Part shown: positions 1 to 33,270 of the stretch, piece by piece
How the letters are laid out: every line of letters starts with the position of its first letter
Numbering within the stretch: the first letter of the stretch is position 1
IMG/VR virus record: IMGVR_UViG_3300008113_000531
Location: 1-36,563 of that record
Origin: a virus
Length of the DNA stretch: 36,563 bases
Strand: one strand, 5' to 3'
Translations under genes and position numbers: made by a program
Notes under the pieces: model-generated
Database searches by the model: none
What the model saw: only the letters and a program-made list of their open reading frames with translations
What the model was told of the DNA's origin: nothing

Positions 1-83
1 AAGATATTGATTTGACCTGAGAATAAAATCTCTTCAATATCTTTAGAATTGTAAACGGCAATACCTAGATTGTCTATATGCAT
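1..83 (-). CDS. Unrecognised protein, N-terminal fragment (runs off left edge)
   Basis: An open frame of 27 codons runs off the left edge; the product begins MHIDNLGIAVYNSKDIEEIL. The start was chosen because a TTGACA-N17-TAAAAT promoter lies directly upstream with its -10 box exactly six bases from this ATG, the spacing seen at three other genes in the window. No Shine-Dalgarno sequence is present, so a leaderless message is likely. The upstream late genes end ten bases before it, so the host-type promoter probably lets it be expressed separately from the tail block. I do not recognise the protein, and too little is visible to assign a role. Confidence 0.55.
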   Translation of the reverse strand, partial: MHIDNLGIAVYNSKDIEEILFSGQINI

Positions 84-89
84 GTCAAC

Positions 90-118
90 ATTTTAGTTGA
101 CTTTTATTAAATTGTCAA
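90..118 (-). promoter_or_regulatory. Host-type promoter, -10 box six bases from an ATG
   Basis: TTGACA (113-118, complement) and TAAAAT (90-95, complement) are separated by exactly 17 bases. Six bases then separate the -10 box from the ATG at 83, so the transcript would begin at or within a base or two of the start codon. The -35 lies inside the 3' end of the upstream gene. Confidence 0.65.
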
Positions 119-5413: not shown

Positions 5414-6052
5414 TTAAAGTATTCCTGCATCTACTGACAGATCAGTAGGTGATATAATGGTGCCACAATCTAGACCAATCTGCGCCAATAAGTATGTGAA
5501 CGAACTAGTATAGGTATTATCTAATGTGCCGAAGTCAAAAGTATTTATCGTACTATTCAAGTCCCTAACAGAGATGCCGTCTACTCGTGCAGGCCTATAA
5601 TTAGGAAGGCCTGGGTTCGGTTGTACTCCAACGATATTACCAGCGGCAATGATATAATCCGGACTTAACGGATAAACCCTACCCATTAAGTTACCGTTAA
5701 ATGCACCGTTGAACATGGATGCAGTAATTATGTTACCTGCTATACTACCAGTGGCTGTTAAACTACCCACATTAATGTCTTTACCGACAAAGTTTGTACT
5801 GATTACTACTTTGTTACCATCTAGTGTAATGGCCAACTTGTCGTTGACTGCAAGTGTTTTAAACTCTAGAGTGTTTACGGTCTTTTGTTTGAATAGTCCT
5901 ACACCGTCGCCAACGTTTGCGGCCACGGTGCTAACGTCGATACTGGTTTCAAGTTCAACAAGATTGTCATTGATCTTTTGAAACGCGGTACGGAGATCGT
6001 CCCCTGTACCGTCGTTTGCTATGTTTCCTATGTCAATTAGTGTTATGTTCAT
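5414..6052 (-). CDS. Structural protein with NDGTGD N-terminal module
   Basis: A 212-residue protein. Residues 1-35 hold the virion module LIDIGNIANDGTGDDLRTAF followed by QKINDNLVELE, almost the same as the start of the giant fibre encoded just upstream, so both probably dock at an equivalent place on the particle. A short Thr/Gly/Asn beta region follows, then a distinct C-terminal domain (YRPARVDGISVRDLNSTINT). The ATG lies five bases from a late-type GATAAATA motif that itself abuts the stop of the giant fibre gene; no Shine-Dalgarno is visible. Initiation may therefore be leaderless. Likely a short fibre or baseplate-associated protein. Confidence 0.75.
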   Translation of the reverse strand: MNITLIDIGNIANDGTGDDLRTAFQKINDNLVELETSIDVSTVAANVGDGVGLFKQKTVNTLEFKTLAVNDKLAITLDGNKVVISTNFVGKDINVGSLTATGSIAGNIITASMFNGAFNGNLMGRVYPLSPDYIIAAGNIVGVQPNPGLPNYRPARVDGISVRDLNSTINTFDFGTLDNTYTSSFTYLLAQIGLDCGTIISPTDLSVDAGIL

Positions 6053-6057
6053 AATGA

Positions 6058-6065
6058 TATTTATC
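6058..6065 (-). promoter_or_regulatory. T4-like late motif GATAAATA, five bases from the ATG
   Basis: The motif begins right after the TAA of the giant fibre gene and ends five bases before the ATG at 6052. In T4 the late box spans about -13 to -6, so +1 would fall on the A of the ATG. No Shine-Dalgarno is present. Confidence 0.5.
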
Positions 6066-14315: not shown

Positions 14316-14323
14316 TGTAAATA
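14316..14323 (+). promoter_or_regulatory. Late promoter-like motif TGTAAATA, five bases from the ATG
   Basis: It ends five bases before the ATG of the zinc-ribbon gene at 14329, with no Shine-Dalgarno. It deviates from the consensus at one position (G for A at the second base), so confidence is limited. Confidence 0.4.
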
Positions 14324-14328
14324 CGTGT

Positions 14329-14616
14329 ATGCTTATTCGAATAGACAAAGAAATTACAAACCATACACGAGTTAGTAAACTTGGAGTAGAACACTGCTAC
14401 GTTAGAGAGCGTAGTATAGCAGTGTTCCGATGCGATAATTGCGGTGGAGGATTTACTAGACCACGCGGCAGTATGGATCCTAAGAGATTAACTAATAATG
14501 TATTCCATTGCTGTGGTAATTGTGATGCTAAAAGATTTGCGCAGAACAAGGGTATTGAAAAGAAACAAATCTGGGACATGCCTGCTAGTAGCCTAAAAAC
14601 AATAGGCCGTATATAA
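14329..14616 (+). CDS. Small zinc-ribbon protein, unknown function
   Basis: A 95-residue basic protein with two Cys pairs, C35-x2-C38 and C62-x2-C65 (with C61 adjacent), giving a typical zinc ribbon, and a basic TRPRGSMDPKRL stretch between them. The ATG at 14329 was chosen because upstream codons in the same frame are antisense to the giant fibre gene. A late-like TGTAAATA motif ends five bases before the ATG and there is no Shine-Dalgarno, so it may be leaderless. Similar small zinc-binding proteins occur in marine T4-like phages without assigned function; the fold suggests nucleic-acid binding. It and the next gene form a short plus-strand island between minus-strand blocks. Confidence 0.75.
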   Translation: MLIRIDKEITNHTRVSKLGVEHCYVRERSIAVFRCDNCGGGFTRPRGSMDPKRLTNNVFHCCGNCDAKRFAQNKGIEKKQIWDMPASSLKTIGRI

Positions 14617-14648: not shown

Positions 14649-14966
14649 ATGTTCAACAAAATTAAAGAATTCTTTACAGGCAAACCAGCAGAGCCAGTTA
14701 AAGAAGTTGTAGCGGAAGCGCCATACAAAGTAGAAGTAAAATCATTCGAGGATACATCGGATATCGCTATTGCACAACGTCCTGCACCTGTTGCTAACAC
14801 AGCACCAGTTGAGGCACCTAGCACCGTTTGGCCGTTCCCTACAGCAGTTGGAGTTGCGCCAGAGTCAGTTAAGGCTGCACCTGCTAAAAAACCAGCCGTT
14901 AAAAAGCCTGCCGCTCCAAAGAAGCCAGCAGGCGGAAAAAGAAGTGGACGTAAGCCTAAGGCTTAA
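14649..14966 (+). CDS. Histone-H1-like basic Ala/Lys/Pro-rich protein
   Basis: A 105-residue protein with three parts: an amphipathic, Lys-rich N-terminus (MFNKIKEFFTGKPAEPVKEV), a neutral Ala/Pro/Val middle, and residues about 76-105 made almost only of Lys, Ala, Pro, Gly and Arg (KKPAVKKPAAPKKPAGGKR), like a histone H1 tail. This composition suggests nonspecific DNA or RNA binding, perhaps in packaging or nucleoid remodelling; that is inference. It has the clearest late-type leader in the window: AATAAATA at 14622-14629, then a strong AAGGAGGA ribosome binding site. Its TAA stop overlaps the stop of convergent uvsE within a shared TTAA. Confidence 0.8.
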   Translation: MFNKIKEFFTGKPAEPVKEVVAEAPYKVEVKSFEDTSDIAIAQRPAPVANTAPVEAPSTVWPFPTAVGVAPESVKAAPAKKPAVKKPAAPKKPAGGKRSGRKPKA

Positions 14967-15976
14967 TTCTTACTTTGTTCGTATAATGCAAAACTAGCAA
15001 GGTTCTTTCCCTTGCTTTCTGCCATGATATCGAACTGATCCCAGAAACTCAGTGCCCATTCGTTACAGGCTCTATTCCAATAGAAGTCTGAATGTGCTCT
15101 GAGTTTTGCCTTTTTATATCCAGTTTCCAACAATACTGGAAAGTTTGGTTGTGTACTAGAGCAGTGTCCTACCAGGATATCTTCACGACTGAGACTGTAA
15201 TGCATTACTGGTCTTACACCCCTCCACGAATCAATTATGCGTAAAACTCTATCGTCGGTGGGCTGTAGATATGTTCCACTATGGATCCAGTCATGGTGTA
15301 TGTCAAGCACCAGTGCGCAGTGTTTGACGAGTTCAATGCTACTGTCAATTCCCCAGGAGATTTCGTCGTTTTCGATTGTGATGCAGTTTCTTGCCTCGGT
15401 GGATAATCTTGGCAAGACATCGATAATACCTTGGGGGCCTCTTCGACCCGAGATGTGTACGTTAATCTTAAAGTCCTGGAAAGTCTTGCCGTATCCCATC
15501 CAGCGGGCCATATCCACATGATATTCGATCTCCTCTATTGACCTGTTGACAATGTCCGGATTGTCACTAGCAAGCACAGTAAACTGGCCAGGATGAAAAC
15601 TAAGACGAACATTGTTTTTACGAGCACTATCGCCAACAACGCTGAAATGCCGCTCACAATACTGAATAACATCGGGCTTACGCCAGAAGTAACTAAAAGT
15701 GGGCTCAGTATATACAGGAAGGATATCACTGCTAATACGAACCATCCTAAGATTTTCATGTTGTTCTCCTACTTTTTCTACAAGCATACGAACACTTTCA
15801 ATGTTCTGCTTCATTAAATCCCAAAGTTTTTCTTCGGCTACTTGACGACTTTGTCGCTTGAGCCAACTAACTGTGGTACTACCTGTGTTATACTTTTTGC
15901 AATCGTCTTTGGGTTTAATACCATTAACTTGATGCGGATGATCGATCCACTTACACGCAAAACCAATTTTTTTCAT
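14963..15976 (-). CDS. uvsE: UV-damage endonuclease (UvsE/UVDE family)
   Basis: A 337-residue TIM-barrel nuclease that nicks DNA 5' to UV photoproducts, starting the alternative excision repair route. The family motifs are in order: RISSD (80-84), SFHPGQF (126-132), H153, NVHISG (172-177), ENDE (202-205), LDIHHDW (224-230), H259 and RAHSDFY (293-299); the His, Glu and Asp residues in these blocks form the metal site in characterised members. Length is normal for the family, so it looks intact. The ATG overlaps the stop of a 49-residue membrane protein as ATGA, and both follow a perfect consensus promoter at 16129-16157. For a phage of sunlit water a repair role for phage DNA is plausible. Its stop codon overlaps that of the convergent gene. 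Confidence 0.93.
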   Translation of the reverse strand: MKKIGFACKWIDHPHQVNGIKPKDDCKKYNTGSTTVSWLKRQSRQVAEEKLWDLMKQNIESVRMLVEKVGEQHENLRMVRISSDILPVYTEPTFSYFWRKPDVIQYCERHFSVVGDSARKNNVRLSFHPGQFTVLASDNPDIVNRSIEEIEYHVDMARWMGYGKTFQDFKINVHISGRRGPQGIIDVLPRLSTEARNCITIENDEISWGIDSSIELVKHCALVLDIHHDWIHSGTYLQPTDDRVLRIIDSWRGVRPVMHYSLSREDILVGHCSSTQPNFPVLLETGYKKAKLRAHSDFYWNRACNEWALSFWDQFDIMAESKGKNLASFALYEQSKN

Positions 15977-16122
15977 AGGTACTTAATAACAAGTTGCTCG
16001 ACTACAAGGTAGTACGACCAGAGTGGAAAAATAAATGCAAAGAAAGTGCTCCAAAAGCCCTGGGCAATAACCAGGCCAGCAATCCATGCTACAAGTAACA
16101 ATAAACTAATCAAGTGTCTCAT
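15973..16122 (-). CDS. 49-residue hydrophobic membrane protein
   Basis: A short frame encoding a protein that begins MRHLISLLLLVAWIAGLVIA and contains one or two membrane segments (residues about 4-20 and 22-42), with a charged end (EQLVIKYL). Support for it being real: its TGA stop overlaps the uvsE ATG as ATGA, and its ATG lies exactly six bases after the -10 box of a perfect TTGACA-N17-TATAAT promoter. There is no Shine-Dalgarno, so the message is probably leaderless. I do not recognise the family. Placement suggests co-production with UvsE, but no functional link to repair is evident. Confidence 0.7.
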   Translation of the reverse strand: MRHLISLLLLVAWIAGLVIAQGFWSTFFAFIFPLWSYYLVVEQLVIKYL

Positions 16123-16137
16123 GCTATAATTATAGCA
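16122..16137. repeat. Perfect 16-bp palindrome over the -10 box and start codon
   Basis: TGCTATAATTATAGCA reads the same on both strands. It covers the -10 hexamer of the uvsE-unit promoter and the first base of the 49-residue gene. It could be an operator for a dimeric repressor, or a by-product of two TATAAT boxes facing each other. Confidence 0.6.
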
Positions 16138-16157
16138 CAACTATCGCCAGTTGTCAA
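16129..16157 (-). promoter_or_regulatory. Perfect consensus host-type promoter for the uvsE unit, -10 box six bases from the ATG
   Basis: TTGACA (16152-16157) and TATAAT (16129-16134), both on the minus strand, are 17 bases apart. Six bases follow before the ATG at 16122. The -35 lies in the 3' end of the glycosyltransferase gene. Confidence 0.8.
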
Positions 16158-16836
16158 CTACTATAGTATCGGCTACATGTTCTGGATTGGGAGTACCGTG
16201 AAATACAAATATACTAGTGTTGGGATCTACTTCTGGATCTCGAACTGTCTTAAAGGTTTGTACTGCACCCATTCTGCTTAATTCCGAATGACGGCGTACT
16301 TGCCATTTGTAACTTTGTATCCAAGGATCGGGATAAAATTTAATACTTGGTTGATGTAGTTTCCAAATCCAATCTTGGTCTCCCATTAATCCGGATGATT
16401 GTCTACGGTCTGAACGATATAGATTCCAAATATCTGAGTAATGACCACTACACCATCGCATCACTGAACTGTTTAACTTGGGAATTTTGTTAAAAATCTT
16501 GCCAGGATCTTCAAATCCAATAAAATGTCCGGGCATATGAGTCAATAATTTGTCGATATTATCGATGATAACAATATCCAAATCAAAATACAGATTGGTT
16601 TCGCCTGCTGTAAAGTGGTCGTCTTTGAATAGATATGTTTTCCACCACCAGCCTTTGATGGTTTCATCAACGGGCAATGACTTGATTTCGATCCTAGGGT
16701 CAAGACCTTGGGGGTCTTCGGTGAAACATACAAAGCGATGGGGTACTGTTAGATGCCTCTGCACCATATTATACAGTTTGTTTACATAATCGGAACTGTA
16801 CTTGTTTCCGAATTTAAGGCATAGAACGTTTAGCAT
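16141..16836 (-). CDS. Glycosyltransferase-like protein (GT-A fold)
   Basis: A 231-residue protein whose residues 66-100 (KTYLF, then NLYFDLDIVIIDNIDKLL) have the DxD signature (D85-L86-D87) of GT-A nucleotide-sugar transferases, preceded by a HRFVCFTED strand as in GT8-like enzymes. A later GDQDWIW motif is typical of the acceptor side of this group. The sugar donor and acceptor cannot be told; phage or host surface glycans, or phage DNA, are possible targets. It is third in a unit after the QueD-like gene and a small membrane protein, 15 bases from the latter. The promoter for the next unit lies across its own 3' end. Confidence 0.75.
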   Translation of the reverse strand: MLNVLCLKFGNKYSSDYVNKLYNMVQRHLTVPHRFVCFTEDPQGLDPRIEIKSLPVDETIKGWWWKTYLFKDDHFTAGETNLYFDLDIVIIDNIDKLLTHMPGHFIGFEDPGKIFNKIPKLNSSVMRWCSGHYSDIWNLYRSDRRQSSGLMGDQDWIWKLHQPSIKFYPDPWIQSYKWQVRRHSELSRMGAVQTFKTVRDPEVDPNTSIFVFHGTPNPEHVADTIVVDNWR

Positions 16837-16851
16837 CTACTATTTAACCTT

Positions 16852-17010: not shown

Positions 17011-17534
17011 TAGCCCTCATAAACTGCCGAGTTGCCAGCGTGTTCAAATACTTCAGCACTTCGAAGTTTGACTCCTTGGCCAACCGGGTAACGTGCTTCA
17101 AATACACGACCGTCTGGATGTGTCCATCCGCGACCTTCTTTGTATGCTTGTAGTATTTCGTTCATAGTTTGATAAGCCAACTCAGCAAACTTTTCGCAAC
17201 CTACTGCTTCTACAATACGTAGATCTAGTACACCGCCCTCTGCTTGCTTGCCTAACTTGGCAAGTTCTTTAAACTTTGGCAAATGAGGATCATCTGAACC
17301 TACTACAGTAGTATGATCAAACTGCCAATCAGCCCATTCTTTAAATGCTTTGAGGCCACCGAAGTCCATGACCCAATTGCGGTCGTCTAATGTTTCTGAT
17401 TCGAAAATTAATTTGATACCGATTGAGTATCCGTGTAGTAATGAGCAGTGACTATGTGTACTTCTCCACTGTCTAAAACAGCATGATAAGCCGCGATCGT
17501 TACCGTAAGTTTTTGTTGAAAGATATTTTGCCAT
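17010..17534 (-). CDS. queD: QueD/6-pyruvoyl-tetrahydropterin synthase-like protein, phage subfamily
   Basis: A 174-residue protein of the PTPS/QueD family, whose members convert dihydroneopterin triphosphate to 6-carboxy-tetrahydropterin (queuosine and deazapurine route) or a related pterin. Visible motifs: HCSLLHGY (29-36), VMDFGG (55-60), FDHTT (72-76), GCEKFAE (112-118) and the C-terminal EVFEHAGNSAVYE (161-173). The usual zinc-binding HGH is HGY here (Y36), and the usual earlier His is Phe or nearby non-ligand residues, so the metal site is altered; I recall the same HGY form from other phage homologues. Cys30, Asp73-His74 and Glu164 remain. It is the first gene of a unit behind TTGACA-N18-TATAAT, with a leader of about 60 bases and AAGGAG. 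Activity is uncertain. Confidence 0.82.
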   Translation of the reverse strand: MAKYLSTKTYGNDRGLSCCFRQWRSTHSHCSLLHGYSIGIKLIFESETLDDRNWVMDFGGLKAFKEWADWQFDHTTVVGSDDPHLPKFKELAKLGKQAEGGVLDLRIVEAVGCEKFAELAYQTMNEILQAYKEGRGWTHPDGRVFEARYPVGQGVKLRSAEVFEHAGNSAVYEG

Positions 17535-17558
17535 TGTAATCTCCTTGATTAAGCAATG

Positions 17559-17596
17559 GCGGCAGAGTTTATATTGCGGGATGACGCCTAGGCCGC
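17559..17596 (-). other. Possible hairpin in the leader of the QueD-like gene
   Basis: The leader of about 60 bases has complementary arms GCGGC (17592-17596) and GCCGC (17559-17563), plus a palindrome GCCTAGGC next to the first arm. No preQ1 riboswitch signature was found. It may be a simple stabilising or regulatory hairpin. Confidence 0.3.
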
Positions 17597-17604
17597 ATAT
17601 ATGT

Positions 17605-18181: not shown

Positions 18182-19722
18182 TTACCTATGTAGCCAAAGG
18201 ATTTCCATTCTCCAGGCTTGCCACCAGTTATACATACCCATCCAATGAATCCTGTATCTTCTGGTTGCGAGTTCCAAGCAATGTCACCTTTGGTCCATAC
18301 ACCAGTCTCGGGAATCCGTGCAGATGTAATGAATTTCTTACCGCCAAACATAACGGCCCCATCAACTTGTAAATCAACTTCAGGGTTGGGATTAGTTACA
18401 TTTACAGACAGTTTACCAAACACATTGATATTTCTATCTGTTCGTTGTTTATCACCTAGTGCAATATCGCCTAGGTTATTTACAGACAAAATTTTGTCTG
18501 TGGCGGCCACAATAGCAAAGTCTTTGCTAGTTGTTTCAATTTTGTTTGCAGTGAAGTTTAAATCGCCAGTTAGATCTTTAATAGCAAATGGTCGAGTTAC
18601 TGTGACTGCATTATTGGATACTTCTAAATGGTTGTCTACTGTAAAAGATCCACTGACTGCAAGTTCCGATAATACACCCACACGAGTCAAACTACTGGTC
18701 TTAACTGACTCTCCAAGATTCTGCAGGTCTAATACTTTAGATTTGTTAATATAGTAGGCACGATTATCGTTTAGGTCGATGCTTTCTGAACAAACAAATC
18801 TATCAAAATTTGGTGCTAGGAAGAAACTGCGAGTATTACCTTCGCCCTTCCATTGAATTCCCTTGCCGTAGACACTTTCTGTTTCTGTGGCAACAAAGTC
18901 CAAACTAGAACTACGTTGCATACGAGTGTCTGATGTTAATTTTGCCACATGAAGTTCACCGCCTATGCGAAGATTACCTGTGACAGACATTTCTCCGTTG
19001 ACTGTGACTTCTGCGTTCTTAGATTTGGCATTGCCGATAACAACGCTATTTCCTTGCATTGTTATTCTATCAGTGTTGTCTGTGATCAAACTTAATTTGT
19101 TTGATCCCCATGTGCCGATTCGAGCAGCGCCAGTTGATTCGTCTCCGCCTAGTACAATCAATACACCAGCGTCTTGAATTGTAACAGCACTAAGCATTTG
19201 TTCTGTGTTGACACTAACACGATTATACAAATCGTTTGCGTAGAATGTTTGTCCTACGCTGATATTACCATCAATTTTTAATCCCAGTAATGTTCCAACT
19301 TTAGTTAGATTAGAACTGGTTACGCTGTCGCTGATACGACCTTCCTCAAGTACAGGAACACCGTTAATCTGATCTAGATCTTGCCTATTAGTGCCGTAAA
19401 ATGTAATTGCCTTGTTATAACTATCTTGGTCCTGCTCTGTAATAATACGTTTAGCACGTATTGTTGTAGCAGTGATCTCATTAGTAACATTGATAGTCGT
19501 AGCATTGACGACTCCAGTGTTAACTTCAGTGGAATTAACTTTATTTTCTACGGTTAAATCGCCTAATATTCGATCTAATCGAAGTTTTGTAAGCACAACT
19601 CCGTTGTCGTTGATTGCTATCTGCTGTCGAGACGCAGAATCAGTAATACCCGCACCGCTGGCAGCGCCAGTTTTTAGTGCAGATTTAAGTTCGTTTAGGA
19701 TTTGATCAATGTTTTGGCTCAT
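18178..19722 (-). CDS. Tail fibre/structural protein (514 aa)
   Basis: A 514-residue fibre-like protein. The N-terminus (MSQNIDQILNELKSALKTGA) is a short helix, followed by repeated beta segments with GDLTVEN, GNISVGQ, GEMSVTGNLRIGGELHV and similar strings typical of triple-stranded fibre shafts. The C-terminus (GDIAWNSQPEDTGFIGWVC, then GGKPGEWKSFG) is a tip motif frequent in aquatic T4-like phage fibres. The ATG at 19722 was chosen over one 25 codons upstream, because a perfect T4 late motif TATAAATA lies at 19730-19737, only seven bases from it; the longer frame would cross the promoter. No Shine-Dalgarno is visible, so initiation is nearly leaderless. Divergent from the plus-strand fibre pair. 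Confidence 0.83.
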   Translation of the reverse strand: MSQNIDQILNELKSALKTGAASGAGITDSASRQQIAINDNGVVLTKLRLDRILGDLTVENKVNSTEVNTGVVNATTINVTNEITATTIRAKRIITEQDQDSYNKAITFYGTNRQDLDQINGVPVLEEGRISDSVTSSNLTKVGTLLGLKIDGNISVGQTFYANDLYNRVSVNTEQMLSAVTIQDAGVLIVLGGDESTGAARIGTWGSNKLSLITDNTDRITMQGNSVVIGNAKSKNAEVTVNGEMSVTGNLRIGGELHVAKLTSDTRMQRSSSLDFVATETESVYGKGIQWKGEGNTRSFFLAPNFDRFVCSESIDLNDNRAYYINKSKVLDLQNLGESVKTSSLTRVGVLSELAVSGSFTVDNHLEVSNNAVTVTRPFAIKDLTGDLNFTANKIETTSKDFAIVAATDKILSVNNLGDIALGDKQRTDRNINVFGKLSVNVTNPNPEVDLQVDGAVMFGGKKFITSARIPETGVWTKGDIAWNSQPEDTGFIGWVCITGGKPGEWKSFGYIGK

Positions 19723-19804: not shown

Positions 19805-21646
19805 ATGCCAGCAGCCTTTTACGACTTTTTTAGGAAGATCAAGTTCCTACCCAACGATATAAGCATCGAAGCGGACAGCACAACTGACACCGCACAGATA
19901 GAAGCGGGCACTAATATCGCTTTTGATGTTGAAGACAGCACCACAGGGCCCGGTGCTACTACAGATAAAGTTGTTATCAACGGCGCACGGTATGATACTT
20001 ATGTACCGGTAACAGGAGCATTGCCCGGAGAAAGTGCTATTATACGTTTAGAGCGCGATGCTCTAGGAACTTCTGGATCCATACAAACAGATATAATTAT
20101 CGAAACTGATCCTCTTAGTCCTATCTTGGTTGATAGAATTGATGGTAATAGAATTAGGATTGGTTCTAGCAGTCCAACCATACCGTTCAGCAGAGAGCAA
20201 ATTGAAGACTTTGTTGCACAATTATTAATTGGCGGAACTCACACTGAGATCACAGTAAACTACGATGACCTAGGAAGTCCTGTTCTAGGCAATATTGATC
20301 TTGCTGTGACGTCTACACTACAAACAGTGACCAATCGCGGTGCCACAACTACTAATGCAGTCAGCATTACAAACGCCACAGGATCAACAGATTCAATCAC
20401 TGGCGCATTGAAAATTACTGGTGGTCTAGGAGTATTTGAAAACGTCAATGTGGGCGGAAACATTGCCACAACAACGGGCACAGTCAGTGCCACAAGATTA
20501 ACCAGTACCGTTGCCACAGGAACTGCACCGTTGACTGTGGCCTCAACAACCGCAGTGGCCAATCTGCAGGCCGCAACTGCCAGTAAATGGCACACTGCTA
20601 GAACCGTTACATTTGCCGGCGGCGATGTAACTGGTAATTTCACTATCGATGGCAGTGCCGATGTGTCTAACGTTGTGCTAACTATTGGTGCAGATAGTAT
20701 TGCACTGGGTACAGACACCACTGGCAACTATGTGGCAGCAGGCGCTGTTTCTGGGAATGGGTTATCAGGAAGTTCAAGTACTGAAGGCGGCACATTCACT
20801 GTCGCTTCAAATGCCACAGCAACCAATACTGGCAGTACCATTGTGTTCAGAGATGCTAGTGGAGACTTTAGTGCTAATAGTATAACAGCATCCTTAAACG
20901 GTAATGCTCTAACTGCATCTTCTTTTCAAACAGCAAGAAATATAAATGGCGTTTCGTTCAGTGGCGGCGCAGATATTGTTGTTGAACCTTATGTAGAAAG
21001 TGATGAGTCAACTAATGCTGCCAGATATATTACATTTGTTGATTCAACAACGGACGGATATCAACGATTAAATGAAGACAGTGGATTAACTTATAATCCC
21101 AGCACTGGTATATTAAGTTCCACAACTTTCAGTGGGGCTGTATCTAGTAGTTCAGTGACTATCACTGGCGGCACAATCAACGGCACCACTATTGGTGCTA
21201 CTACTGCTTCTAGTATCTCTGCTACCACTGTGACAGCATCAGATACAGTTACGTTTAATGCATCGGCTATAGAAGAAGTTAGTGTGCAGGCCGATGCCGC
21301 AACAGGAACTATAACATTGGATTGTAAAACTAACAGTGTGTTCTATTACACCTCCAACGCTACTGGTAACTGGACACTGAATTTTAGAGGCGACGGCGCA
21401 ACCACTATGAACACATTCCTGGCAGTGGGAAAAAGTGTCACAGTGGTATTTTTAGCCACACAAGGAGTTACTGCGTTTTATCCTACAACTTATCAAGTAG
21501 ATGGAGTTGGCGTTACACCTCGATGGTTAGGCGGTACAGCACCCACAGGCGGCAATGCTTCAAGCATTGACAGTTATTCATTTACTATTATTAAAACAGC
21601 CGCAAGTACATATACAATTCTAGCCAGCCAAGCAAGATTTGCCTAA
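19805..21646 (+). CDS. Tail fibre/structural protein on the plus strand (613 aa)
   Basis: A 613-residue fibre-like protein. Residues 1-20 (MPAAFYDFFRKIKFLPNDIS) are distinctive. Residues 129-155 carry REQIEDFVAQLLIGG and TEITVNYDD, a strand-helix motif common in marine phage structural proteins, and 199-217 contain TGALKITGGLGVFENVNVGG, a shaft repeat of the same group. The middle is Thr/Ser/Ala/Gly-rich; the last 110 residues form a separate tip domain (TITLDCKTNSVFYYTS to ILASQARFA). The ATG at 19805 follows CATAAATA (19773-19780) and an ACAGGAC ribosome binding site. The gene is inverted relative to most of the tail genes and is read with the LamG adhesin nine bases downstream. Confidence 0.83.
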   Translation: MPAAFYDFFRKIKFLPNDISIEADSTTDTAQIEAGTNIAFDVEDSTTGPGATTDKVVINGARYDTYVPVTGALPGESAIIRLERDALGTSGSIQTDIIIETDPLSPILVDRIDGNRIRIGSSSPTIPFSREQIEDFVAQLLIGGTHTEITVNYDDLGSPVLGNIDLAVTSTLQTVTNRGATTTNAVSITNATGSTDSITGALKITGGLGVFENVNVGGNIATTTGTVSATRLTSTVATGTAPLTVASTTAVANLQAATASKWHTARTVTFAGGDVTGNFTIDGSADVSNVVLTIGADSIALGTDTTGNYVAAGAVSGNGLSGSSSTEGGTFTVASNATATNTGSTIVFRDASGDFSANSITASLNGNALTASSFQTARNINGVSFSGGADIVVEPYVESDESTNAARYITFVDSTTDGYQRLNEDSGLTYNPSTGILSSTTFSGAVSSSSVTITGGTINGTTIGATTASSISATTVTASDTVTFNASAIEEVSVQADAATGTITLDCKTNSVFYYTSNATGNWTLNFRGDGATTMNTFLAVGKSVTVVFLATQGVTAFYPTTYQVDGVGVTPRWLGGTAPTGGNASSIDSYSFTIIKTAASTYTILASQARFA

Positions 21647-25271: not shown

Positions 25272-25897
25272 TTTTCACCTCTTTTGGAAACTACTTTGTC
25301 AGCCAGGCCATATGCCACTGCTTCTCCTGCACTCAAGAATGTATCGAACTTCATTGTTTCAAATAGTTCAGCATACTGTTTGCCCGCAGTATTATGTCGA
25401 ACATACAGTTCAGTCAACCGTTCGTTGATACGTTTACTTTCTTCAAAACTACGTTTTGCATCCTCAAACTCTAATTCTTGAACATGTACTGAACCACGAG
25501 TACCAGGAGTACCTGAACTCACACGATGAATCATAGTGCGGCTTTCCGGCAATACAAATCGTTTGCCAGGGGCTCCTGCCTGTGCAAGAAAACTGCCCAT
25601 ACTACAGGCCTGCCCAATCACATAGGTAGCAACGTCCGGCTGGATAAACTGCATGGTGTCATAGATGGCCAAGCCAGCAGTCACACTGCCACCGGGACTG
25701 TTGATAAACAGATTGATGTCTTTATCCCCGCTTTCGCTTTCAAGGAACAGTAATTGTGCCACAATAATACTAGCAGTATGTTCGTTGACATCAGTGTCTA
25801 ACATGATAACACGATCCTTTAACAGGCGTGAGTAAATGTCATAGGCACGTTCGCCTTTGTTGGTTGATTCAACAACCATGGGAATAAGATTAGGCAT
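25268..25897 (-). CDS. clpP: ATP-dependent Clp protease proteolytic subunit
   Basis: A 209-residue serine peptidase of the ClpP family, which forms a double-heptamer chamber fed by an AAA+ unfoldase; no ClpX or ClpA is in the window, so it may use host unfoldases. Catalytic residues are in place: Ser99 in GQACSMGS, His124 in TMIHR, and Asp185 in [32 protein letters not shown] (65-80) is the oxyanion/strand region. Compared with E. coli ClpP the His-to-Asp distance is about 12 residues longer, with extra sequence around [18 protein letters not shown] in the handle region. No long propeptide is seen. It overlaps the upstream gene by eight bases and the downstream WYL_2-like gene as ATGA. Possible roles are host protein turnover or virion protein processing. 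Confidence 0.95.
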
Positions 25898-27802: not shown

Positions 27803-28648
27803 TTAAATTTCCACAATAAAGTTAGAATCGAAATTGGGATTCTCATCGTGGTAACCACGAGGGTTACATACCACACGAGTGTCTCCAATCATATAGTCAA
27901 ATGTTTGATGCATGTGTCCGTGTGTCCACAATTTGATACGGTCGTGATCTAGAATAAACTCACTCAAGTCACTGGCATATCCGCCATTCATCAGGGTGTC
28001 GTTTTTGTAGTACTCATGAATACTCAAATGACTAGGAGCATGATGACTACAAATCACTACTTTGGCGTCTTGGGGCAAGCCCAACATCACTGACTTGAAA
28101 TATTCCACAGTGCGGCGATGTTCGCCGACAGTGCGAGCGGGTAAAAACTTTCTGAATCCTTCTTTAGCAATCCGGATAACTCTAAAGTCATTCATGGCAG
28201 TTTCAAGATGATACAGTGTTAGACTGTCTGCTTTGTTGCAGTCGGTCCACATGGTGCCACCAATAAAGGTAACATCATCTATTACCTTGGTACCTTTGTC
28301 TAACAAATAGACGTTATTGAGTCCCATGGAGTCTAAGGCCTCTTGGACATAAGACGCACTGAGATCAAACTTACCATGATAATGCTCATGGTTGCCAAGC
28401 ACATAAATCACATGCGGAAATTGGAAACTACACCGTTTAAAGAAATCTCTATATCTTTGAGCAGCCGCTTGCCTACGTCCTAAATTTGGAATCACAGTAG
28501 GATCCATTGGATGTACAGGTGGGTGATCGTGAAGATCCTGCGTGACGCAGATATCACCGCTGAGTACTAACACATCCGCACCAAGTTCATTCTTGATATG
28601 GATGTCTTCGAACTCTAAATGTAAGTCGGATACAATTTGTATTTTCAT
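27803..28648 (-). CDS. Calcineurin-like metallophosphoesterase
   Basis: A 281-residue phosphoesterase with all five family motifs: SDLHLEF (7-13; Asp8, His10), SGDI (30-33; Asp32), GNHEHYHG (85-92; Asn86, His87), CSHHAPS (200-206; His202 and His203) and THGHMHQTFD (242-251; His243, His245). These bind two metals that act on phosphomono- or diesters; the substrate is unknown (RNA ends, cyclic nucleotides, DNA and protein phosphates are all known in the family). The start at 28648 is fixed by motif I at residue 7. A TTGACA-N17-TATAAT promoter lies directly upstream with the -10 box six bases from the ATG and no Shine-Dalgarno, so this first gene of an eight-gene unit is probably leaderless. Confidence 0.9.
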   Translation of the reverse strand: MKIQIVSDLHLEFEDIHIKNELGADVLVLSGDICVTQDLHDHPPVHPMDPTVIPNLGRRQAAAQRYRDFFKRCSFQFPHVIYVLGNHEHYHGKFDLSASYVQEALDSMGLNNVYLLDKGTKVIDDVTFIGGTMWTDCNKADSLTLYHLETAMNDFRVIRIAKEGFRKFLPARTVGEHRRTVEYFKSVMLGLPQDAKVVICSHHAPSHLSIHEYYKNDTLMNGGYASDLSEFILDHDRIKLWTHGHMHQTFDYMIGDTRVVCNPRGYHDENPNFDSNFIVEI

Positions 28649-28654
28649 GTTGAT

Positions 28655-28683
28655 ATTATACTGCAATTATGATTTTTTGTCAA
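28655..28683 (-). promoter_or_regulatory. Perfect consensus host-type promoter for the phosphoesterase-clpP unit, -10 box six bases from the ATG
   Basis: TTGACA (28678-28683) and TATAAT (28655-28660), minus strand, spacer 17, then six bases to the ATG at 28648. No Shine-Dalgarno. The -35 is inside the last codons of the upstream gene. Confidence 0.82.
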
Positions 28684-29023
28684 CAGCATCGTGCCATTTA
28701 AGAGTCCAGAATGTATAATCTACATCTTTGAGTTTGGCCGTAACTGCATATTGATAACCATATGACGAGTGATCTATACGTCTATGCCATTGCGGACTTT
28801 CTATAGCATGTGACATGATCCATTTTCCGGATTCAGAATTTTGCCATTCATGTAAAGGCATGGCCGCATATAAATCTGGATCATCAACATCGCCCATGGT
28901 AAACTTATGTACTGTTACATTGTGAATACGATAGGCACGATTGTCGATGACTATAGTTTCATAATTCTGGCCTTTTGGAGTATTACCAATGTAACCATTT
29001 TCTGGTGCCAAATGCCGAGACAT
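28667..29023 (-). CDS. Unrecognised 118-residue protein
   Basis: A soluble protein beginning MSRHLAPENGYIGNTPKGQN. The middle block (DDPDLYAAMPLHEWQNSESG, KWIMSHAIESPQWHR) is rich in Trp and His and looks like the most constrained part; the C-terminal half (YGYQYAVTAKLKDVDYTFWT) looks like beta strands. No catalytic pattern is identified. The ATG overlaps the stop of the gene upstream as TAATG. The -35 box of the next promoter lies inside its last codons, so the promoter region is shared with the coding end. Confidence 0.68.
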   Translation of the reverse strand: MSRHLAPENGYIGNTPKGQNYETIVIDNRAYRIHNVTVHKFTMGDVDDPDLYAAMPLHEWQNSESGKWIMSHAIESPQWHRRIDHSSYGYQYAVTAKLKDVDYTFWTLKWHDAVDKKS

Positions 29024-32855: not shown

Positions 32856-33071
32856 TCACAGTCTGTAGGTGATTCGACCTTTGGATAAATCATAAGGGCT
32901 CATTTCTACTCGAACTCTATCGCCCATGATGATTTTGATTTTATTTTGGCGCAGTCGTCCATTGGTGTAGCAAGTGATAACGTGTCCATTTTCCAAAGTA
33001 ACACGAAACATGTTACCCGGCAGAACTTCGGAGATGGCACCTTCCAACTCGATTAAATCTTCTTTGCTCAT
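32856..33071 (-). CDS. infA: Translation initiation factor IF-1 homologue
   Basis: A 71-residue OB-fold protein matching bacterial IF-1 nearly end to end: [19 protein letters not shown] (1-19), [12 protein letters not shown] (21-32), GDRVRVEM (50-57) and [14 protein letters not shown] (58-71). IF-1 binds the A site of the 30S subunit next to helix 44 and works with IF-2 and IF-3 in start selection. The family length is about 72, so it is complete, though it ends at the Arg-Leu without the usual extra basic residues. The hIsGk(M/I)RxNxI segment is more diverged here ([15 protein letters not shown]). The ATG overlaps the stop of the AbrB-like gene as ATGA. As a phage gene it may bias host ribosomes to phage messages; that is inference. 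Confidence 0.93.
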
Positions 33072-33235
33072 ACTTTTTTGATGACCATTGCACCGTCGGT
33101 GACTTCAATGTGCATGGTGTCACCTTCTTTCCATCCTTGCTGTTCGCAGATTTCGGGAGGGATTTTGAATATAACATTATCCGGGTCTCCCGGAATGTCT
33201 TCAAATAGTTCTTCAACTAGGTAAGTTTTACTCAT
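33068..33235 (-). CDS. AbrB/MazE-like 55-residue DNA-binding protein
   Basis: A 55-residue protein with the swapped-hairpin pattern of the SpoVT-AbrB group: [19 protein letters not shown] (21-39), then [16 protein letters not shown] at the end. These usually dimerise and bind DNA as small regulators or antitoxins; no toxin partner is adjacent, IF-1 being the next gene. I recall similar short proteins from marine T4-like phages. The start follows a TTGACT-N17-TATAAT promoter with the -10 box exactly six bases from the ATG and no Shine-Dalgarno, so the message is probably leaderless. The stop overlaps IF-1 as ATGA, making an AbrB-like/IF-1 operon that might be autoregulated. Confidence 0.82.
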
Positions 33236-33241
33236 ACTGCC

Positions 33242-33270
33242 ATTATATGATCTATTGCGATGTAAGTCAA
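33242..33270 (-). promoter_or_regulatory. Host-type promoter for the AbrB-like/IF-1 unit, -10 box six bases from the ATG
   Basis: TTGACT (33265-33270) and TATAAT (33242-33247), minus strand, spacer 17, then six bases to the ATG at 33235. No Shine-Dalgarno is present. Confidence 0.75.

Follow-up and report, generated by a model that had tools for sequence, protein, structure and literature searches.

The 36,563 nt window studied here (the whole stretch of DNA analysed, IMG/VR virus record IMGVR_UViG_3300008113_000531, positions 1 to 36,563) and its relatives contain genes whose ATG lies exactly six bases after the -10 box of a sigma-70-type promoter (N6), or four to five bases after the TAAATA core of a T4-type late promoter. 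This geometry was conserved across unrelated genes and lineages, was confined to ATG at both promoter types and was accompanied by a scarcity of Shine-Dalgarno (SD) sequences. Judged from sequence, both sets of candidates very probably give rise to leaderless mRNAs, on which translation begins by recognition of the 5'-AUG. The results support the leaderless interpretation given in an initial annotation of the window, and the layout is wider than was claimed there, as T4-type late promoters show it too.

Most genes of the window are carried on the minus strand. They include genes for tail and fibre-like proteins, a ClpP-type protease, an ATP-dependent DNA ligase, a UvdE-like endonuclease, a QueD-like enzyme and the translation initiation factor IF-1. 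The nearest large contigs are uncultured IMG/VR phages of approx. 100-270 kb, and the lineage is one of uncultured jumbo phages / T4-related large viruses infecting aquatic bacteria. Isolates were remote, the best being Pseudomonas jumbo phages of the PA5oct group (53% identity for the terminase of the related contig G005, 62% for the ClpP of the window). IF-1 similarity was tried for host assignment and was uninformative, its top hits being scattered over Clostridia, Proteobacteria and others.

Sigma-70 promoters six bases before the ATG

According to the initial annotation, four genes of the window (ATG at 83, 16122, 28648 and 33235) follow a TTGACA-N17-TATAAT-N6-ATG-type arrangement and lack an SD. 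All four arrangements were present, on the minus strand, and no SD was found at any of them (Table 1). The only non-consensus boxes were the -35 box TTGACT (33235) and the -10 box TAAAAT (83). The genes named for comparison (17534, 24860, 31821 and 32804) had AAGGAG/AGGAG sites and longer leaders, as claimed. When promoters matching at least 10 of the 12 consensus bases were counted in the window, three ATGs of open frames of at least 35 codons were found at distance 6, versus none at 16 background distances (0-4, 8-18); the gene at 83 is truncated by the window edge and therefore too short for this count. The start of the metallophosphoesterase is set by the conserved N-terminus MKIQIVSDLHLEF. 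Compared with PF04014, the 55 aa gene gave an E of 3e-5, just below the cut-off.

Table 1. Promoters and associated genes in the window.
Feature	Position	Strand	Remarks
Promoter TTGACA-N17-TAAAAT	90..118	-	six bases before ATG 83
Gene with predicted leaderless start	1..83	-	cut by left end of window after 27 codons
Promoter TTGACA-N17-TATAAT	16129..16157	-	six bases before ATG 16122
49 aa gene, predicted leaderless start	15973..16122	-	phrog_16613, E 5.5e-19
UvdE-like endonuclease gene	14963-15976	-	comes after the 49 aa gene
Promoter TTGACA-N17-TATAAT	28655..28683	-	six bases before ATG 28648
Metallophosphoesterase, 281 aa, predicted leaderless start	27803..28648	-	phrog_1649, E 2.6e-53
Promoter TTGACT-N17-TATAAT	33242..33270	-	six bases before ATG 33235
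55 aa gene, predicted leaderless start	33068..33235	-	weak MazE/AbrB-type match; phrog_661
Translation initiation factor IF-1 gene	32856..33071	-	PF01176, E 7.6e-24; PDB IF-1 chains down to E 2.5e-27
TAAATA late core	6058..6063	-	five bases before ATG 6052; kept in relative L166
Predicted leaderless late gene, baseplate/fibre-connector-like	5414-6052	-	TAAATA spacing
TAAATA	14318..14323	+	five bases before ATG 14329 (95 aa ORF), predicted leaderless late gene
TAAATA	16841..16846	-	four bases before ATG 16836
Candidate leaderless late gene, glycosyltransferase	16141-16836	-	TAAATA spacing

At the 16122 promoter, the -35 TTGACA (16152-16157) is embedded in the VVDNWR-stop codons of the upstream glycosyltransferase gene. 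In relatives, apparently the same glycosyltransferase-embedded promoter precedes different genes, again at N6. The UvdE-like endonuclease gene was found directly behind an N6 promoter in many relatives (20 endonuclease loci with N6).

A fifth match in the window, TTGACA-N18-TATAAT-N6-ATG at 17598, was rejected as a leaderless mini-gene. It opens a frame of nine codons only, and it is located where the QueD-like gene at 17534 has the 5' end of its leader RNA, a conserved element that was also seen in relatives. This leader (17535-17600, minus strand) was present in 38 of 41 distinct QueD upstream regions of relatives (e.g. L195:7574-7661, L232:7154-7241). Immediately ahead of the SD it has an H-type pseudoknot made up of a 5 bp P1 and a 5 bp loop-to-3' helix. 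Pairing was seen in 99.1% of cells, and covariation was 0.406 versus 0.142 in shuffles (0/500). No match was found in Rfam 15, and the leader is a candidate for an unlisted queD/preQ1-type riboswitch in phages.

The spacing was then counted in 240 related IMG/VR loci, retrieved with three window genes, with the window added. The promoter threshold and frame length were those used above, and ATGs were counted per distance from the -10 box. The distribution was bimodal. A peak one base wide was found at distance 6 (115 ATGs, versus 19 at five and 10 at seven bases), and a second, broad hump at 25-35 bases formed the SD-bearing class. An SD was present in 61% of cases at 22-36 bases versus 8/115 at six bases. 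The distance-6 genes belong to about 50 protein families. Because relatives were retrieved with three genes, some families are over-represented, and this bias was addressed by collapsing families and by counting in whole contigs. After collapse, distance 6 still held 20 families, where the background was 0.75 per position, and the nine nonredundant large contigs gave 42 cases at this distance versus 4.9 expected. The scan of relatives that had been proposed with the initial annotation showed enrichment, and its view that the six-base spacing is hard to explain by chance was borne out.

A motif-free count of positional hexamers before 2787 distinct gene starts recovered SDs first. It also recovered TTGACA beginning exactly at -35 from the ATG (43 versus 3.3 expected) and TATAAT at -12 (49 versus 6.2 expected), which are the textbook coordinates if the ATG is +1. 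The sigma-70 -10 box occupies -12 to -7, so a distance of six bases puts +1 on the ATG. The peak at exactly six is hence the -10 placement that would make +1 coincide with the start codon, as looked for in leaderless genes. Leadered promoters in the same phages showed an initiation-like pyrimidine, A and T at distances 5, 6 and 7, with the A at distance 6.

The six-base spacing was conserved in related phages, since all four window sites had relatives that keep N6. For the metallophosphoesterase it was kept in 13 relatives besides the window, some below 60% identity, and other relatives had an SD leader instead with the identical Met start. The 33235 gene had N6 in L008 and L092, and also in L007, L089 and L098 with a weaker -10 box. 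The N6 geometry of the 16122 gene was found in L119, and a homologue of the 83 gene with N6 in L473. No true starts were found downstream: the conserved SDLH motif of the metallophosphoesterase opens at residue 7, and the ATG is the only start codon ahead of it.

At distance 6, long frames began with ATG in 108 cases, versus 17 with ATT, 23 with ATA, 8 with GTG and 2 with TTG. The excess of ATG over ATT and ATA controls for a preference for A then T at the transcription start, which of itself makes ATG more frequent at this place. The strong peak was confined to ATG at both the sigma-70 and the late promoters. An in-frame stop within 60 bases upstream left no alternative start in 44/62 early-type and 66/111 late-type candidates. 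Of the leaderless candidates, 5/62 of the early type and 1/111 of the late type had an SD. The share was 44% among other genes and 62-71% among genes with leadered promoters. This scarcity is partly automatic because the -10 box occupies the SD region.

T4-type late promoters and limits to the lineage

In several relatives the 33235 gene was found without a sigma-70 promoter and with TAAATA a few bases before the ATG instead, and late promoters were therefore tested generally. Their spacing was bimodal as well: 68 ATGs were counted at four bases and 103 at five, and another hump covered 17-24 bases. Among the positional hexamers of the 2787 starts, TAAATA was found 66 times at a gap of five bases (6.9 expected) and 45 times at a gap of four (7.2 expected). 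The nine large contigs gave 114 cases at distances 4 and 5 together versus 6.4 expected. When the TATAAATA-like core was tested, TAAATA was recovered ahead of gene starts with a gap of 4-5 or 17-24 bases, and the first two bases varied. The T4 late core TATAAATA spans -13 to -6 (PMC1524935), so five bases is the spacing with +1 on the ATG. Sigma-70 and late promoters thus peaked at different distances, each as predicted from its own +1.

Inspection by eye showed a resemblance of the 95 aa ORF at 14329 to a conserved family; TAAATA-N4/5-ATG is present in 33 of the 37 members of this family. In some cases the TAAATA coincides with the upstream gene's stop codon. Stop-codon spacing was rejected as the source of the late peak, as TAA-starting hexamers overall were flat with distance. 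A gp55-type late sigma factor (phrog_234) was identified in six contigs (G005, G006, G007, G008, G009 and G012), and was not found in the window fragment, G001, G003, G010 or G014. BLAST detected a homologue of the T4 gp45 clamp in G012 only.

We also observed divergent open frames whose ATGs are separated by only approx. 20-40 bp and each have a TAAATA of their own four to five bases ahead (G001 at 107106 and 111243, G003 at 73432 and 75588, G005 at 25850 and 264675, G014 at 191309). The shared region of such pairs is partly palindromic. The window also has a pair of divergent fibre-like genes, one at 19722 on the minus strand and one at 19805 on the plus strand. ATG 19722 has TATAAATA seven bases ahead of it and, as a start, looks better than TTG 19797 further upstream.

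Neither peak was found in T4, S-CRM01, PA5oct and Melnitz, which were used as controls (3 versus 2.4 expected for sigma-70, 13 versus 13 for late promoters). Even PA5oct, of the group of isolates nearest to the lineage, did not have the architecture. The initial annotation had spoken of a systematic set in a T4-like phage. This holds for the uncultured lineages of the window itself but not for T4-like phages at large, as the four isolates lack it. Usage also varied within the lineage: G012 had an early peak and no clear late peak, and G014 the reverse. A generic, phage-wide feature was rejected. In an unbiased IMG/VR sample the bump was weak (11 at distance 6 and 7 at distance 7, versus approx. 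3), and the strong signal therefore belongs to the relatives of the window. Among the unbiased loci L366-L437, perfect TTGACA-N17-TATAAT promoters had a small ATG excess at seven bases (19 for any frame, 10 for long ORFs), which is perhaps another phage group with a shifted start.

Proposed expression and its alternatives

In the mechanism that we propose, host RNA polymerase with a sigma-70-type factor would recognise TTGACA-N17-TATAAT, and the -10 box would fix +1 seven bases downstream, on the A of the ATG. With +1 on this A the mRNA would begin with 5'-AUG, and the terminal AUG would be recognised, mostly by 70S ribosomes, without an SD. The T4-type late promoters would follow the same logic, with TAAATA ending five bases before +1. 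We infer the position of +1, the 70S route and the timing from sequence, the "early" timing of the N6 genes being drawn from their host-type promoters. A plausible benefit is compaction, with the promoter inside the tail of the upstream gene, or divergent genes sharing approx. 20-40 bp, and no room for a leader. Read-through transcripts from upstream promoters could also carry the candidate genes.

It is improbable that the genes instead depend mainly on longer polycistronic transcripts and on translational coupling to, or 70S scanning from, the upstream gene, with the near promoter secondary and the spacing a result of dense packing. Upstream genes do end nearby (gene 28667-29023 stops 18 bases ahead of ATG 28648, and the -35 box sits in its final codons), and for many of the promoters the -35 box falls within the coding sequence upstream. 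Such expression would, however, need neither a fixed six-base TATAAT gap nor a five-base TAAATA gap, nor TTGACA exactly at -35; in the divergent pairs neither gene has a neighbour upstream that runs the same way, and the flat distribution of TAA-starting hexamers also argues against it.

We consider it very unlikely that the ATG is merely part of an initiation motif, pyrimidine-A-T-G, with translation starting elsewhere. Leadered promoters prefer A at distance 6 and T at distance 7, which would fit such a motif, as would the slight rise of short-frame ATGs at six bases (46, versus 34 at five and 30 at seven), but the peak consists of long-frame ATG (108) and not of long-frame ATT or ATA (17 and 23), conserved proteins start at the N6 Met and most candidates have no alternative start. 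Strongly disfavoured, and the least probable of all, is a statistical by-product of AT-rich, dense phage genomes and biased sampling of relatives. Two of the three retrieval-gene families do give 34 of the 115 distance-6 cases; the peak nevertheless stayed after family collapse (20 versus 0.75 expected) and was repeated in whole contigs, and T4 and PA5oct are more AT-rich, yet have no peak.

Initiation factors and known leaderless systems

The product of the IF-1 gene of the window belongs to the IF-1 sequence family. Its start overlaps the stop of the 33068-33235 gene (ATGA); the gene is not itself leaderless and would be expressed by translational coupling. The small AbrB/MazE-like gene and IF-1 form a conserved two-gene cassette with the ATGA overlap. 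In G005, IF-1 itself lies behind TTGACA-N17-TATAAT-N6-ATG and is predicted to be leaderless. Besides the window, IF-1 was present in five of the nine large contigs (G001, G005, G006, G007 and G014), and was not found in G003, G009, G010 and G012. We rejected IF-1 as a strict requirement, as G009, G010 and G012 have a peak without a detected IF-1 (these contigs may be incomplete). In the view of a review (PMC9031893), it is mainly 70S ribosomes that bind leaderless mRNAs, at the 5' AUG; in vitro, IF1 and IF2 stimulate this binding and high IF3 inhibits it. As the presence of IF-1 is patchy, a role for the phage IF-1 in leaderless expression is an idea only. A two-stage leaderless programme, early with sigma-70 and late with a gp55-type factor, in which the phage's own IF-1 tilts host ribosomes to the 5'-AUG and bypasses the SD pathway, might be envisaged, but we regard it as doubtful.

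The classical single leaderless mRNA is that of phage lambda cI. The likeness lies in the use of host RNA polymerase and in a start codon at the mRNA 5' end, here predicted; unlike the single lambda gene, dozens of gene families and two promoter classes are involved. The T4 late promoters share the core motif, and a gp55-type factor is found in several relatives, but T4 and S-CRM01 have no ATG peak at four to five bases from TAAATA. The Thermus phage phiYS40 has leaderless middle and late mRNAs, with IF2 up and IF3 down (reviewed in PMC3594737). Many of its mRNAs lack a leader, as is predicted here, and the review ties leaderless use to changed expression of initiation factors. In contrast to phiYS40 with its Thermus host, the phages here are T4-related, have sigma-70 consensus and T4-type late promoters, and some have their own IF-1. 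In Actinobacteria and in Deinococcus-Thermus, the phylum of the phiYS40 host, leaderless genes whose -10 box lies approx. ten bases ahead are common (PMC3160421). These TA-led genes resemble ours in having a -10 element at about ten bases before the start codon and no SD (PMC3160421; PMC12340547); ours differ in being phage genes with the full -35/-10 consensus, mixed with SD-led genes, and in the additional late promoters. A literature search, with subscription journals mostly outside its scope, found no published systematic leaderless set in a T4-related phage. The parts are thus known; what appears to be new is that a T4-related lineage uses them systematically and in both classes of promoter.

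Confirmation would make leaderless expression a genome-wide layout in a lineage of large T4-related phages, beyond single genes or Thermus. Start-site programs that rely on the SD may misplace such starts in annotation. As the same gene can be leaderless in one phage and SD-led in another, these phages would provide a natural set in which it is testable when and why leaderless translation is used.
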